The notes beneath the pieces were generated by a model that searched no databases, was not told the origin of the DNA, and was given only the letters and a program-made list of their open reading frames with translations. Positions 7,149 through 20,380 of a DNA stretch of 33,230 nucleotides are shown here, one piece after another (the first letter of the stretch is position 1; every line of letters begins with the position of its first letter). The translations under genes were made by a program, and so were the position numbers. Source of the DNA: a virus; IMG/VR virus record IMGVR_UViG_3300022538_000580, positions 1-33,230 of that record, one strand, 5' to 3'.

Positions 7149-7592
7149 ATGCCTGAATCTGATTATCATGGAAAAGCCGCTAATGCTTTTTGGGGTCTTG
7201 ATACTGATGGAACTGTAGCAGCTCTTGGAGCACTTACTAATGTTATAGAATGGACTGCTAATTTAATTGCTGGCACAGCCGAAAGCACAGTAATGCATGG
7301 TTCCAGCACAGGTAAGATGCGAGAAGTAGGTTTCAAAGGTGGTACTGCTACAGTTACTTGTCATTTATCAGGAGATGTAGAAATTGATGAAGGTCAAGAA
7401 GGAGCGCTTGAACTATTGCGTGGACCTCTTAATGCTGACAAAGGATATGTTTTTGGCACAGTTGGGGCAGCAGGTAAAGGTGCTATATGTACCGGAGTTG
7501 ATTTAGGGGTGGATAAGGATGGAATAGAAACTGTTACTTATAGTTTTCAAGCTACAGGAACAATAACAACGACAATGACAAAAGGGAGTTAA
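7149..7592 (+). CDS. tail tube-like protein, type B copy 2
   Basis: A 147-residue paralog of the gene at 6290, preceded by GAAAGGAT. Conserved parts are DYHGKAANAFWG, TAESTVMHGSSTGKMREVGF, GGTATVTCHLSGDVEIDEG and GVDLGVDKDGIETVTYSFQ. The first 30 residues contain an extra Ala/Gly-rich insertion (DTDGTVAALGALTN). It closes the A-B-A-B series and is followed four bases later by the tail-assembly chaperone, as expected for a tail-tube gene. Confidence 0.6.
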   Translation: MPESDYHGKAANAFWGLDTDGTVAALGALTNVIEWTANLIAGTAESTVMHGSSTGKMREVGFKGGTATVTCHLSGDVEIDEGQEGALELLRGPLNADKGYVFGTVGAAGKGAICTGVDLGVDKDGIETVTYSFQATGTITTTMTKGS

Positions 7593-7595
7593 ATT

Positions 7596-8054
7596 ATGTC
7601 CATGGACTTGAGCGGTTTTGTGCGGAAAAAGGCAACAGTAGAAATTGGCTCCAAGAAATTTATTTTCACCGAACTTGACATGGCTGACCTTGCCGCATTC
7701 AAAAATTATTTGATAGAACAAAAGAAGAAAGCAAATCAAGAACACAGGGAAAGACTTGTGACTGATGCCAAAAAGATAGGCGACATCGACCCAATGGAAC
7801 TACTTAAACTGACGGATTCTTCCATATCCGAAGAAGAATTTGAAGAACAATTAGGCACGGTAGAGGGACTTTCTTATCTTGTTTATTTAAGTTTAAGATA
7901 TGCATACCCCGAAGTCAGCAGGGAAGACGCAACACATATAATGACGCCAAGTAATTCCGATGCCATTCTTGAAATAATGTTCCCCGAAACCAAGGGCGAT
8001 AAAAAAGGCGAGGTCAAAAAAAAATTGACCCCCAAAAGAAAATCTCCGAAATAA
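7596..8054 (+). CDS. tail assembly chaperone, short form (gpG-like)
   Basis: A 152-residue acidic/basic protein lying between the tail tube and tape measure genes, where phages encode the tail assembly chaperone. It has DLSGFVRKKATVEIGSKKFIFTELDMADLA at the N-terminus (split here across the start and a beta pair) and an acidic helix EEEFEEQL. The end is Lys-rich because it runs through the slippery A run. It binds the tape measure during tail assembly and is not in the final virion. The assignment rests on position, length and the frameshift signal rather than strong motif similarity. Confidence 0.75.
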   Translation: MSMDLSGFVRKKATVEIGSKKFIFTELDMADLAAFKNYLIEQKKKANQEHRERLVTDAKKIGDIDPMELLKLTDSSISEEEFEEQLGTVEGLSYLVYLSLRYAYPEVSREDATHIMTPSNSDAILEIMFPETKGDKKGEVKKKLTPKRKSPK

Positions 8055-18302: not shown

Positions 18303-18566
18303 ATGTTGGCCATTCATAAAAATTTAAGTTTGCAAACACAGCAACGCAGAATACGGCATAGATGCGAGATTGAAAAATTCTGCGAAGCTATTGAAGAGTT
18401 ACCGGTCGAAAAGCAAATTTTGTTTAGATTGTATTTTCGCTATGGCTACTCAACTGGAGCGATAGCAAAGCTATGTAAAGTTCACGAAACGACTATTGCA
18501 AGACGCTTAAAAAGAATAGCGAAGGAAGTGGAAACTGTTCTTTCTAAAAAGGGAGTGGTTTTATAA
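18303..18566 (+). CDS. small helix-turn-helix (sigma region 4-like) regulator
   Basis: 87 residues. The C-terminal half, LPVEKQILFRLYFRYGYSTG then AIAKLCKVHETTIARRLKRI, has the helix-turn-helix pattern of sigma-70 region 4 and related phage transcription regulators. The N-terminal part is basic and helical. It could regulate phage late or early transcription, but there is no region 2, so it is not a complete sigma factor. No strong ribosome site is seen before the ATG. Confidence 0.65.
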   Translation: MLAIHKNLSLQTQQRRIRHRCEIEKFCEAIEELPVEKQILFRLYFRYGYSTGAIAKLCKVHETTIARRLKRIAKEVETVLSKKGVVL

Positions 18567-18574
18567 GCCACTCC
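18552..18574 (+). terminator. hairpin spanning the HTH gene stop codon
   Basis: GGAGTGG (18552-18558) pairs with CCACTCC (18568-18574) with a 9-base loop that contains the TAA stop. No T run follows. Terminator or processing hairpin. Confidence 0.35.
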
Positions 18575-18602
18575 TGAGCTCTCTTAAAAGTTTATGGGTA
18601 TA

Positions 18603-18735
18603 TGGCTGGCGGCGGCACGGCAAAGCCGTGGATAGCAACACGGTTGAGGTATGCGAAACATACTGCGTAGAGTTCAACACCTACTTAGGCTTGTCTGACC
18701 AAACAAGCTGAATAAGTTATCCTGCCCGCCAGCCA
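18603..18735 (+). ncRNA. structured RNA element E1 (new family, copy 1)
   Basis: A 133-base element closed by a perfect 10-bp stem, TGGCTGGCGG / CCGCCAGCCA. Inside, CCGTG (18626-18630) pairs with CACGG (18639-18643); its loop base-run GATA pairs with TATC (18718-18721) three to four bases before the closing strand, giving a pseudoknot. Two more hairpins follow, GTATG/CATAC and GCTTGT/ACAAGC. The near-5' GGCGGCGGC and 3' ATCCTGCCCGCC are shared with E2 and E3. CACGGC-AAA-GCCGTG is an alternative hairpin that competes with the pseudoknot. It ends 33 bases before a small gene. Confidence 0.55.
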
Positions 18736-18768
18736 AAGGAATAATACATAAGTAGAAAGGAAAGAAAG

Positions 18769-18948
18769 ATGAGCGAGCAAAGTCTTGAAAGAGCCGTCTT
18801 GGCAGAAGCCAAGGAAGTTACCGGCAACAAAAAACTCAAAATGAAAGACATTATGGAGTGGAGCACGGGAGAGGTTAATGCACAAGATGGTGAGAAGCTG
18901 TATTGGCTACCCGTTCTTGGCGTGAGTGTAGCAGTAAAAATTCAATAG
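18769..18948 (+). CDS. 59-residue hypothetical protein downstream of E1
   Basis: Starts at an ATG with the strong purine-rich site GAAAGGAAAG. The sequence begins MSEQSLERAVLAEAKEVTGN and ends LYWLPVLGVSVAVKIQ; the first half is helical and the end hydrophobic. It has no recognised domain. Its leader is the structured element E1, which could control its translation. Confidence 0.6.
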   Translation: MSEQSLERAVLAEAKEVTGNKKLKMKDIMEWSTGEVNAQDGEKLYWLPVLGVSVAVKIQ

Positions 18949-19019
18949 TGAATTTGGCCAGATTAACGATGGCTATTAAATCGCTCTCTTAAAACTAAAT
19001 AGCATATCTCCCTCCTCCT

Positions 19020-19049
19020 AAGCCAGAGCTTGTGTTTTGGCTCTGGCTT
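19020..19049 (+). terminator. 10-bp hairpin before element E2
   Basis: AAGCCAGAGC pairs perfectly with GCTCTGGCTT around a 10-base loop (TTGTGTTTTG). It ends 13 bases before E2. The lack of a T run makes it an uncertain terminator; it may also be a processing hairpin or part of the RNA array. The rest of 18949-19019 shows no gene. Confidence 0.4.
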
Positions 19050-19062
19050 TAGAAAGCTATTC

Positions 19063-19163
19063 TGGTAGGGCGGCGGCGTGGTAATGTTGGGGATTGGAAA
19101 GTAGGCCGAAGGGAAAGTTGCCATTACCTTGTAAGTGCTGAACCAATCCTGCCCGCCCTGCCA
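19063..19163 (+). ncRNA. structured RNA element E2 (new family, copy 2)
   Basis: A 101-base element closed by 11 bp (TGGTAGGGCGG / CCGCCCTGCCA, one G-U pair). GGTAATG (19080-19086) pairs with CATTACC (19122-19128), and the loop contains GGATTGG (19091-19097), which pairs perfectly with CCAATCC (19143-19149), three bases before the closing strand. This is the same pseudoknot order as in E1 and E3. It is preceded by GAAAGCTAT, repeated just before E3. No ORF of its own is evident. Confidence 0.6.
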
Positions 19164-19178
19164 GATATTGAAAGCTAT

Positions 19179-19323
19179 GCGAGGCGGTGGCGGAATAGGT
19201 AGACGCAGGTGAAGCAGGAAAGTCAAGTGCGAAACTGTGGTAGTGGGAATGGATTCGCGGCCGGACACACTACAAGCCTGATAAGTTGCAATCGTGTAGG
19301 GTGCAAATCCCTGCCCGCCTCGC
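19179..19323 (+). ncRNA. structured RNA element E3 (new family, copy 3; partly tRNA-Leu-like)
   Basis: A 145-base element closed by 9 bp (GCGAGGCGG / CCGCCTCGC). GTAGTG (19240-19245) pairs with CACTAC (19268-19273), and the loop's GGATT (19251-19255) pairs with AATCC (19306-19310), giving the same pseudoknot. The 5' part contains TGGCGGAATAGGTAGACGCA, very close to the D-arm of bacterial tRNA-Leu, and the 3' part contains a T-arm-like TAGGGTGCAAATCCCTG that would compete with the pseudoknot. No anticodon arm can be drawn, so it is not an ordinary tRNA. A small gene follows 39 bases later. Confidence 0.55.
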
Positions 19324-19362
19324 TTATTGAAAACGCTCTTTATGAGCAGAAAGGAAAACAAG

Positions 19363-19528: not shown

Positions 19529-19619
19529 GGGCGGCACTAAAACAGGAGACGACACTAAAAGAGCTTGGCTAAACGCTATAAACCAGCCCGCTGGCTTGTG
19601 GCTGGCGGGCAGGCCGCCC
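19529..19619 (+). ncRNA. structured leader E4 with inverted repeats
   Basis: GGGCGGC (19529-19535) pairs with GCCGCCC (19613-19619), enclosing a second hairpin GCCCGC (19586-19591) / GCGGGC (19605-19610). The 15 bases TGGCTGGCGGGCAGG at 19599-19613 are the exact reverse complement of E1's 3' arm. It does not carry the E1-E3 consensus and so is a relative at most. It is followed at once by AAAGAAAGG and the next gene. Confidence 0.4.
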
Positions 19620-20023: not shown

Positions 20024-20380
20024 ATGGAACATTTGTTCAAACTGGGAAAAGACGGGAAAACAGTTGGGTATTTATGGATTAGAGATGGATATATTACATA
20101 TCACACTCATCCAGACGCACAACCAGAACCAAGCATACCAATTTGGGATGCCGCCCATCCTTTCGTTTGCCAAGACAAGAACGGCAAGAGGGTGTTTGAG
20201 GATGATAACGTCATTTATGGATGCCAAAGAGCCATTGTTAAACAGAACGATGGCGATTTTGGCTACCATTTAGAATTTATGGATTTACCTGTTATGGAGC
20301 CAATCAAAACAGGAAAAAAAGTAACTAATATATTGTATAGGGAGATGTGCAAAGACATTGAGCTTATCAAGGAGAAATAA
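20024..20380 (+). CDS. YopX-like small phage protein
   Basis: 118 residues from ATG 20024. The C-terminal half has FVCQDKNGKRVFEDDNVIYG, which matches the YopX pattern in which a D-x-N/G-K-x-x-F/Y-x-x-D stretch is followed by a beta strand and here FGYHLEFMDLP. Such proteins are common in temperate phage early regions, with unknown role. It sits two bases after the membrane peptide and two bases before the next gene. Confidence 0.6.
   Translation: MEHLFKLGKDGKTVGYLWIRDGYITYHTHPDAQPEPSIPIWDAAHPFVCQDKNGKRVFEDDNVIYGCQRAIVKQNDGDFGYHLEFMDLPVMEPIKTGKKVTNILYREMCKDIELIKEK

Follow-up and report, generated by a model that had tools for sequence, protein, structure and literature searches.

We analysed a 33,230-nt stretch of viral DNA (IMG/VR virus record IMGVR_UViG_3300022538_000580, positions 1 to 33,230), referred to below as the window. 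Three putative structured RNA elements, E1, E2 and E3, lie in tandem on its plus strand between positions 18,603 and 19,323, downstream of a gene for a sigma/ArpU-like regulator. An earlier note, made from the sequence alone, had described them as three related copies of one pseudoknotted RNA. Our analysis indicated that E3 is almost certainly a tRNA-like RNA element of a family that we designated class I, and that E2, perhaps together with E1, probably belongs to another, class II. The locus contains the following features.

18303..18566, plus strand: sigma/ArpU-like regulator gene, upstream of the elements (phrog_36, E=7.5e-8; PF08281, E=4.7e-8)
18603..18735, plus strand: E1, class II-like element of unproven membership; GGCGGCGGC and ATCCTGCCCGCC are common to E1 and E2
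19062..19164, plus strand: E2, class II tRNA-like element, a weak match (model R2, on 19067-19159)
19179..19323, plus strand: E3, class I tRNA-like RNA element with its core at 19181-19321 (model R1)

E3 and the class I family

Class I has a 7-bp acceptor stem, a D-arm of the tRNA-Leu type, a variable middle and a 6-bp T-arm. In E3 these parts were assigned as follows.

19181..19187, plus strand: 5' strand of the acceptor stem, pairing with 19315-19321; the stem extends to 19179/19323
19190..19206, plus strand: tRNA-Leu-type D-arm, with stem 19190-19192/19204-19206 and GG in the loop
19207..19295, plus strand: variable middle, replacing the anticodon arm, with candidate crossing helices
19296..19314, plus strand: T-arm, with 6-bp stem 19296-19301/19309-19314 and loop TGCAAAT
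19315..19323, plus strand: 3' strand of the acceptor stem (from the sequence, and from covariation in 66 homologues)

When the region was compared with named phages in a sensitive DNA search, short matches came from 21 records, and all 20 that were listed fell in E3. The 5' part of E3 matched unannotated sites in the Bacillus phages phi3T and SPP1, in Leuconostoc phage Ln-9 and in others, as well as annotated tRNA-Leu genes of Synechococcus phage S-CAM3; the 3' part matched Lactobacillus phage 8014-B2. The D-arm motif of E3 was identical in the unannotated sites of phi3T, SPP1 and Ln-9. The matched phage sites had a common plan: an acceptor stem, GTGGCGGAATAGGTAGACGC or a sequence near it, a variable stretch, a T-arm with GGTGCAAATCC that in most cases has CAT just ahead of it, and the return strand of the acceptor. 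In the seven loci read first, neither ARAGORN nor Rfam called any of these elements.

The search pattern for class I joined the D-arm motif to that of the T-arm and left the acceptor, the outer T-stem pairs and the middle free. At least 120 stretches were found in viral contigs and 103 in bacterial genomes, the latter, by record titles, mostly Firmicutes (Paenibacillus, Listeria, Bacillus and Lactobacillaceae), with some metagenome-assembled genomes labelled otherwise. At least 287 unique class I elements were obtained, 211 with the D-stem form GCG/CGC (the window's included) and 76 with the form GTG/CAC. The phage of the window recurs in two loci, L159 (100% identical over 8163 bp) and L353; L159 was excluded from the family counts, and L353 only from the count of unique elements in the two D-stem forms.

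The 127 pattern elements were reduced to 122 unique ones. Each acceptor pair forms in 109-119 of these and each T-stem pair in 116-122, and many pair types occur in the acceptor and the outer T-stem. For model R1, every second one of 143 non-redundant elements (middles of at most 85 nt) was taken, up to 70, and 66 were aligned. The alignment of these 66 divergent elements, which leaves the window out, has 98.1% of its cells paired and a covariation of 0.671, compared with 0.182 after shuffling and at most 0.128 after sliding. The acceptor stem had 96.8% of its cells paired and changes on both sides in all seven pairs; the T-stem had 98.7% and such changes in four of six pairs, the other two being fixed by the search pattern. 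The T-loop TGCAAAT, which is present in E3, was likewise fixed by the pattern. Because the pattern had also fixed the D-stem, we scanned for separate D-stem forms. The doubly changed GTG/CAC occurred in 78 stretches, versus 7 with the mismatched GCG/CAC; the scan covered these two forms, the other single change, GTG/CGC with its G-U pair, lying outside it. All 13 acceptor and T-stem pairs were kept in 57 of the 76 unique GTG/CAC elements. The D-stem is not strictly required, since six of the seven mismatched elements also keep the 13 pairs. Taken together, the sequence comparisons showed that the acceptor, D- and T-stems of class I covary.

With R1, built without the window, E3 scored 71.7 bits (E=1.8e-17), and no other match appeared in the window up to E=10. 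Among 20 named-phage loci, 16 scored at least 49 bits: SPP1, phi3T, BUCT082, BUCT083, SPbetaL1, SPbetaL4, Ln-9, KLEB27-1, Gut-P1, 8014-B2, SBSphiJ2, Goe3, Grass, H1-Guo, Pd_22F and R24.2. The records of Goe3 and SPbetaL1 annotate a hypothetical protein gene that overlaps the element. Ten bacterial genomes gave 16 matches of at least 62 bits, 11 of them in the exact-pattern list and 5 outside it, and the next match had 40.9 bits; in these genomes, as in the Listeria genus scanned with R1 (see below), 150 first-look candidates were scored per genome. A verified tRNA-Leu of S-CAM3 reached 36.4 bits with the class I model. ARAGORN called a tRNA or transfer-messenger RNA (tmRNA) in none of 231 class I elements, and no tRNA in the window.

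Much of what the earlier note had seen directly was confirmed. The closing stems (18603-18612/18726-18735, 10 bp; 19063-19073/19153-19163, 11 bp, or 13 bp in another reading; 19179-19187/19315-19323, 9 bp), GGCGG(C/T)GGC directly within them and ATCC(C)TGCCCGCC at the 3' side occur in E1, E2 and E3, and the complementary strands GGATA/TATCC of E1 and GGATTGG/CCAATCC of E2 exist in the sequence. The pseudoknot drawn for E3 (GGATT/AATCC) failed, because AATCC is the 3' half of the T-arm, four of whose six pairs covary in homologues. This clash ruled out one layout in three copies. The compensating changes, which the note had read through three equivalent copies, do not hold in that form, E3 being of one class and E2 (perhaps E1) of another. 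The reading as structured RNA stood, for E3 with homologues and covariation behind it, but the D- and T-arms of E3 had been overlooked and the idea of a single layout was wrong. Measured against dinucleotide shuffles, the folding energy gave z -4.1 for E1 (0 of 200 shuffles as good), -3.1 for E2 (1 of 200) and -1.4 for E3 (16 of 200).

The note had known no named family with this layout, and Rfam 15 gave no match to the elements: over the window nothing reached family thresholds, and in 18550-19360 a search up to E=10 returned only mir-541 and TCL6_1, both sub-threshold. The homologue and Rfam searches that it had put forward as tests, when run for E3, yielded homologues with covariation and no Rfam reclassification.

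Other short tRNA-like stretches were seen beside class I elements. In SPP1 (L004, about 1605-1665), a second, very short one follows the class I element; it has a T-arm GGGTTCAATTCCC, is closed by ACGGAC/GTCCGT and was not called by ARAGORN. L005 and L006 have a tRNA-like stretch with D-arm and T-arm between the class I element and a tRNA-Arg, in which a pseudoknot TCGGG/CCCGA crossing GTGC/GCAC can be drawn. Burkholderia phage FLC9 (L350, 798-846) has a Leu-type D-arm nearly abutting a T-arm, so that hardly any middle is left; no genes are annotated in the long stretch that holds them.

The variable middle of class I

The class I middle is 41-101 nt long. In E3 the candidate crossing helices are UGCGAA 19228-19233/UUCGCG 19254-19259 across GUAGUG 19240-19245/CACUAC 19268-19273. 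We examined the middles for an anchored stem, ending at most 3 nt before the T-stem, after similar ones had been merged (122 to 104). Such a stem, which most often leaves two bases before the T-stem, beat single-base shuffles (p<=0.05) in 30 of the 104 middles, where 5 were expected. Four middles had no anchored stem; in 16 of the remaining 100, a second stem crossing the anchored one also reached p<=0.05 against single-base shuffles.

One allele set (L202, L049, L239 and L205) allowed an alignment. Three chain-crossing helices were fully paired in it, with 7 of 18 pairs changed on both sides, and the whole structure of these four same-allele sequences held 10 both-sides changes, compared with a shuffled mean of 4.5 (above all 500 shuffles) and at most 1 after sliding. 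Since the structure was derived from the same four sequences, the share of paired cells leans towards it. These results suggested that interlocked pseudoknot helices form in the class I middle, as shown in the one allele set and as supported statistically for the family.

The middle also varied independently of its surroundings. In 35 pairs of elements the flanks were homologous on either side; the middles were similar (at least 0.8) in 28 of these pairs and unrelated in 7. Two of the seven were tandem copies in one contig, which leaves 5 of 33. Between phi3T and BUCT082 the flanks are 92-93% identical and the middles 0.52 (random pairs have a median of 0.49, with 95% at 0.57); between L033 and L285 the values are about 96% and 0.49. 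Conversely, the phi3T-type middle also occurs in Goe3 (0.80) and SBSphiJ2 (0.75), and the SPP1-type middle in Grass (0.81). By record classification phi3T is a Spbetavirus, SPP1 is without family, and Goe3, SBSphiJ2 and Grass are Herelleviridae; the host of all is B. subtilis. SBSphiJ2 and Grass, of one genus, have different middles (0.58), whereas L085, L089 and L094 have one middle in common and L094 differs in its acceptor. A looser clustering placed 245 middles, with E3 counted twice, in 163 groups, 123 of them single. Thus, as judged from aligned loci, the class I middle can be exchanged wholesale between phages while the acceptor and flanks are retained.

E1, E2 and class II

Class II was sought with a pattern from E1 and E2 and then with a looser pattern. 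Its layout comprises an acceptor with inner CGG/CCG, CGGCGTGG, a variable middle and a T-arm GCAGG-TTCRAAT-CCTGC. The body begins with CGGCGTGG, which often continues GCGTG-GTGGGAA-CACGC, in 37 of 50 candidates, E2 included. Of the 61 stretches from the first pattern, many were GC-rich coding sequence. Twenty distinct sequences among them had at least three outer acceptor pairs; they include E1 and E2 (as L159), and coding sequences remain by eye. With the second pattern, unselected, all four outer acceptor pairs were present in 35 of 37 unique hits, compared with a shuffled mean of 16.7 and maximum of 22. Model R2 was built without the window from 44 of 48 references, with L133, L175, one of L155 and one of L301 dropped by eye. 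Its members have a 5-bp T-stem and loops that are partly TTCRAAT; the 100% pairing in its alignment is partly selection, because members were chosen for acceptor complementarity and T-arm.

R2 found E2 at 19067-19159 with 26.3 bits (E=9e-4, a rough value) and gave elements of L164, L155 and L158 similar scores of 26-30 bits. It also gave a weak match on E3; up to E=1, ordinary tRNAs in L005, L006, L010 and L048 were not reported. We consider that E2 probably belongs to class II; for E1 the case is evenly balanced. The parts assigned within the two elements are these.

18613..18628, plus strand: E1 D-arm-like hairpin CGGC-ACGGCAAA-GCCG (sequence and fold)
18630..18636, plus strand: E1 strand GGATAGC, which can pair with GTTATCC 18716-18722 and starts 17 nt after the acceptor
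19074..19089, plus strand: E2 D-arm-like hairpin CGGCGU-GGUA-AUGUUG (minimum-energy fold)
19090..19097, plus strand: E2 strand pairing with 19143-19150 next to the acceptor (minimum-energy fold)

The minimum-energy fold of E1 holds the alternative CACGGC/GCCGUG instead of the D-arm-like hairpin. In E2, the stem GGTAATG 19080-19086/CATTACC 19122-19128 and the D-arm-like hairpin are mutually exclusive; the second element of L164 (48.4 bits with R2) has a comparable pair, GTGGCAG/CTGCCAC.

The 5' strand of a local T-arm GCAGG..CCTGC is absent from E1 and E2, and their 3' T-strand can pair instead with a strand of the body that starts 16-17 nt after the acceptor. Tested against shuffles, this long-range stem had p=0.034 in E2, where it is the best partner and starts 16 nt after the acceptor, and p=0.149 in E1. 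It had p=0.004 both in the first element of L164 (18 nt) and in L359 (17 nt), the latter selected by a pattern that already contained the long-range strand: a scan for a far-upstream T-strand gave 33 stretches, and L359 was the single new one among them to pass the acceptor check while lacking a local T-arm. Six candidates without a clear local T-arm put their best partner at other places (L184 0.069, L151 0.159, L185 0.219, L158 0.254, L152 0.746 and L155 0.788). The long-range pairing that the earlier note had proposed was therefore supported for E2; E1 can form the pair, with the single-element value given above.

Several phages carry class II-type elements in tandem, and in L164 a homologue of the window's regulator (42% over 62 amino acids) stands directly before the first class II element. 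L354 and L355, relatives found via the gene at 20024, have a class II element at another place; R1 gave no match on them.

Three further observations concern these regions. A 15-nt exact reverse complement of the E1 3' strand (18721-18735) lies 863 nt downstream, at 19599-19613, in a GC-rich stretch, and may be a remnant or an antisense site. L158 has successive acceptor-closed elements with a repeated TAATCTTTTGC spacer (about 7300-7850). In L355, a 10-bp stem CAAGGCGGCT/AGCCGCTTTG, one of whose pairs is G-U, closes a stretch of about 60 nt at about 3300.

Genomic context, possible role and known RNAs

A called tRNA lies within 500 bp of 49 of 208 unique class I elements, versus 8.4% of random positions in the same loci, and in all 49 the element has the strand of the nearest tRNA. 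A simple scan for open reading frames (ORFs) placed a downstream ORF beside 187 elements, sharing the strand of 139 of them and opposite to 48; the upstream ORF, present for 190 elements, shares the strand of 156 and is opposite to 34. The proteins flanking 61 viral-locus elements fell into 102 clusters. Judged by one member each, the two largest hold late-transcription regulators (7 and 6 proteins) and the third an HNH gene (3). The regulator upstream of E1 is of the same type as the late-transcription neighbours in some class I phages. An independent RNA gene fits the tRNA proximity, the mixed ORF strands and the scattered neighbours better than a leader does. The discriminator base in 208 elements is A in 103, T in 67, G in 21 and C in 17, and CCA is encoded in 2 of 208, although CCA added later would escape a reading of the sequence. 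A charged tRNA is disfavoured for these two reasons.

With some reserve we favour a reading in which class I is a stand-alone gene for a processed, trans-acting tRNA mimic whose pseudoknot domain would give specificity, conflict being the most likely purpose. By comparison, the acceptor, D-arm and 6-bp T-arm form the upper half of a tRNA, and a variable domain, exchangeable as a cassette, stands where the anticodon arm would be. A second tRNA-like class on the same plan would be represented by E2 and, with less certainty, by E1; in these two the strand beside the acceptor can pair far upstream in place of a local T-arm hairpin. The RNA would be made from phage operons and tRNA arrays and trimmed at the acceptor by host tRNA-processing enzymes. 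It would not decode; it may act in trans by engaging a host or rival-phage factor that recognises the tRNA elbow, with the swappable pseudoknot domain setting the specificity. Acceptor and T-stem together have 13 bp, the count of bacterial tRNA-Sec, which is unfavourable for EF-Tu and would fit a non-decoding role. A role in conflict (phage-host or phage-phage, as decoy or inhibitor) is a tentative suggestion when taken by itself; its grounds are variability, the exchange of cassettes, and sharing between phages that have a host in common. More doubtful is the idea of a large phage arsenal of anticodon-less tRNA mimics, in which a constant elbow would dock on a tRNA-binding host factor and the pseudoknot would set the target; it is similarly uncertain that such mimics would be traded among unrelated phages of one host against host defence or rival phages.

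Several results weigh against this proposal. The family is not solely a phage device, because a class I match (E<=1e-6) occurs once in each of the nine genomes searched from the genus around Listeria cornellensis. The one in L204 (4544-4673) lies beside azlCD, flanked by azlD and a DUF1361 gene; no phage gene was recognised in its vicinity, and it has apparently been domesticated. The crossing helices of E3, as a single copy, were not above shuffles (z -0.7), so support for its middle helices comes from homologues. An unanchored test for crossing stems, run on the 122 elements with dinucleotide shuffling as background, gave a weak signal: z averaged -0.62 (median -0.83), and in 20% of elements no more than 2 of 40 shuffles did as well. 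E1 scored only 13.5 bits with R2 with filters off, the class I model gave 5.7 bits for E1 and 4.6 bits for E2, and the long-range stem reached p<=0.05 in 3 of 10 elements, one of them pattern-chosen. Moreover, other specificity systems would show the same variability, exchange and sharing. As for chance crossing stems as an explanation, the anchored test and the allele alignment countered it, the unanchored test being weak.

Among the alternatives, the tRNA-like ends could be processing punctuation, that is, RNase P/RNase Z cutting marks in a polycistronic transcript with the middle as filler. The window's elements do lie between small same-strand genes, and the tRNA-array setting on the strand of the nearest tRNA (49 of 49) and the well-conserved acceptor and T-stem pairing suit this explanation; filler, however, would be unlikely to keep the anchored stem (30/104), the crossing stems (16/100) and the compensated interlocked helices, and we consider it improbable. 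Marginally less so is a translation RNA of the tmRNA type, an anticodon-less tRNA entering the ribosome or binding EF-Tu or SmpB. tmRNA joins the upper half of a tRNA to pseudoknots and has no anticodon, and class I occurs in tRNA arrays, in L090 in one that also holds a tmRNA. Yet ARAGORN reported no tmRNA among the 231 elements, the alanine pair G3:U70 is present in only 8 of 208, and the discriminator is unconserved. Class I is also far shorter than tmRNA (RF00023) and has a D-stem, its middle leaves little room for a tag frame (judged from length alone), and its 13 bp of acceptor and T-stem would not favour EF-Tu.

A use outside translation, with aminoacylation by leucyl-tRNA synthetase or some other enzyme, would agree with the tRNA-Leu-type D-arm and the S-CAM3 score; given a discriminator A in just 103 of 208, the rarely encoded CCA, and a TGCAAAT loop on a 6-bp T-stem unlike that of tRNA, such a charged acceptor RNA seems quite unlikely. 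The same D-arm similarity might suggest decayed tRNA-Leu genes with inserted sequence, but covariation in acceptor, D-stem, T-stem and middle, the uniform 6-bp T-stem and middle types common to differently classified phages make this barely credible, and an ordinary or broken tRNA-Leu was ruled out by the covariation and the ARAGORN result. Allelic cassette exchange at one locus recalls specificity pairs, as in a type III antitoxin-like or immunity-type RNA whose variable pseudoknot neutralises a matching partner encoded elsewhere; no recurring partner gene was seen beside the elements, the three largest neighbour clusters being those named above, and we give this explanation little weight. 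Cis-regulatory leaders of the following genes (riboswitch-like or tandem control elements) are equally improbable. The earlier note was right that small ORFs follow, 33 nt past E1 (18769) and 39 nt past E3 (19363), behind repeated AGAAAGGA sites; its hint that the elements act before genes was unsupported for class I because of the 48 downstream ORFs on the opposite strand, to which the 34 upstream ones, the scattered flanking proteins and the tRNA-array setting can be added.

Compared with tRNA, specifically tRNA-Leu, class I is the same in its 7-bp acceptor, U8, D-arm GGCGGAATAGGTAGACGC with GG, T-loop and frequent occurrence in tRNA arrays. It differs in the missing anticodon arm, the 6-bp T-stem with loop TGCAAAT, the unconserved discriminator, the seldom encoded CCA and the lack of an ARAGORN call; neither the 5-bp T-stem with TTCRANT loop nor the anticodon stem-loop by which a tRNA is recognised was found. 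Plant-virus tRNA-like structures build a tRNA shape with pseudoknots at the 3' ends of RNA virus genomes, whereas the present elements are DNA-encoded in phages and bacteria and gave no Rfam match in the loci scanned. The STAXI motif is described as a pseudoknot usually present three times in tandem near DNA-handling genes (Weinberg 2010, PMC2864571). That tandem layout resembles the earlier note's description of the locus; the elements differ from STAXI in their tRNA-like arms and in giving no Rfam match up to E=10. STAXI presumably has an Rfam model. The elements of another 64 loci (57 class I, 7 class II) likewise matched nothing in Rfam 15. Among the papers listed in searches of PMC, none described such a family; preprints and most subscription journals lay outside its scope, so that a prior description is possible.

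The nearest kinds, tmRNA, viral tRNA-like structures and ROOL/GOLLD RNAs, each fail a defining feature or gave no match; we treat the family as new, though it could also be classed as a further variety of tRNA-like RNA. If the proposed reading is right, a frequent type of phage RNA gene escapes standard annotation even in textbook phages such as SPP1, as well as in SPbeta-like and SBSphiJ phages, which are used in defence research; and a tRNA body with a swappable knotted domain, if true, would be a new way of building an RNA effector.

ROOL and GOLLD are presented as phage or prophage RNAs of unknown function, several hundred nt long and cage-forming, often near tRNA islands (PMC12286853). 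Neither had an Rfam match in the window. ROOL was found beside class I in 2 of the 57 class I loci scanned with Rfam: in L042 it (667-1248) ends 13 nt before the class I element (1262-1384), and in L090 it (599-1208) stands in one tRNA array with the class I element and the tmRNA.

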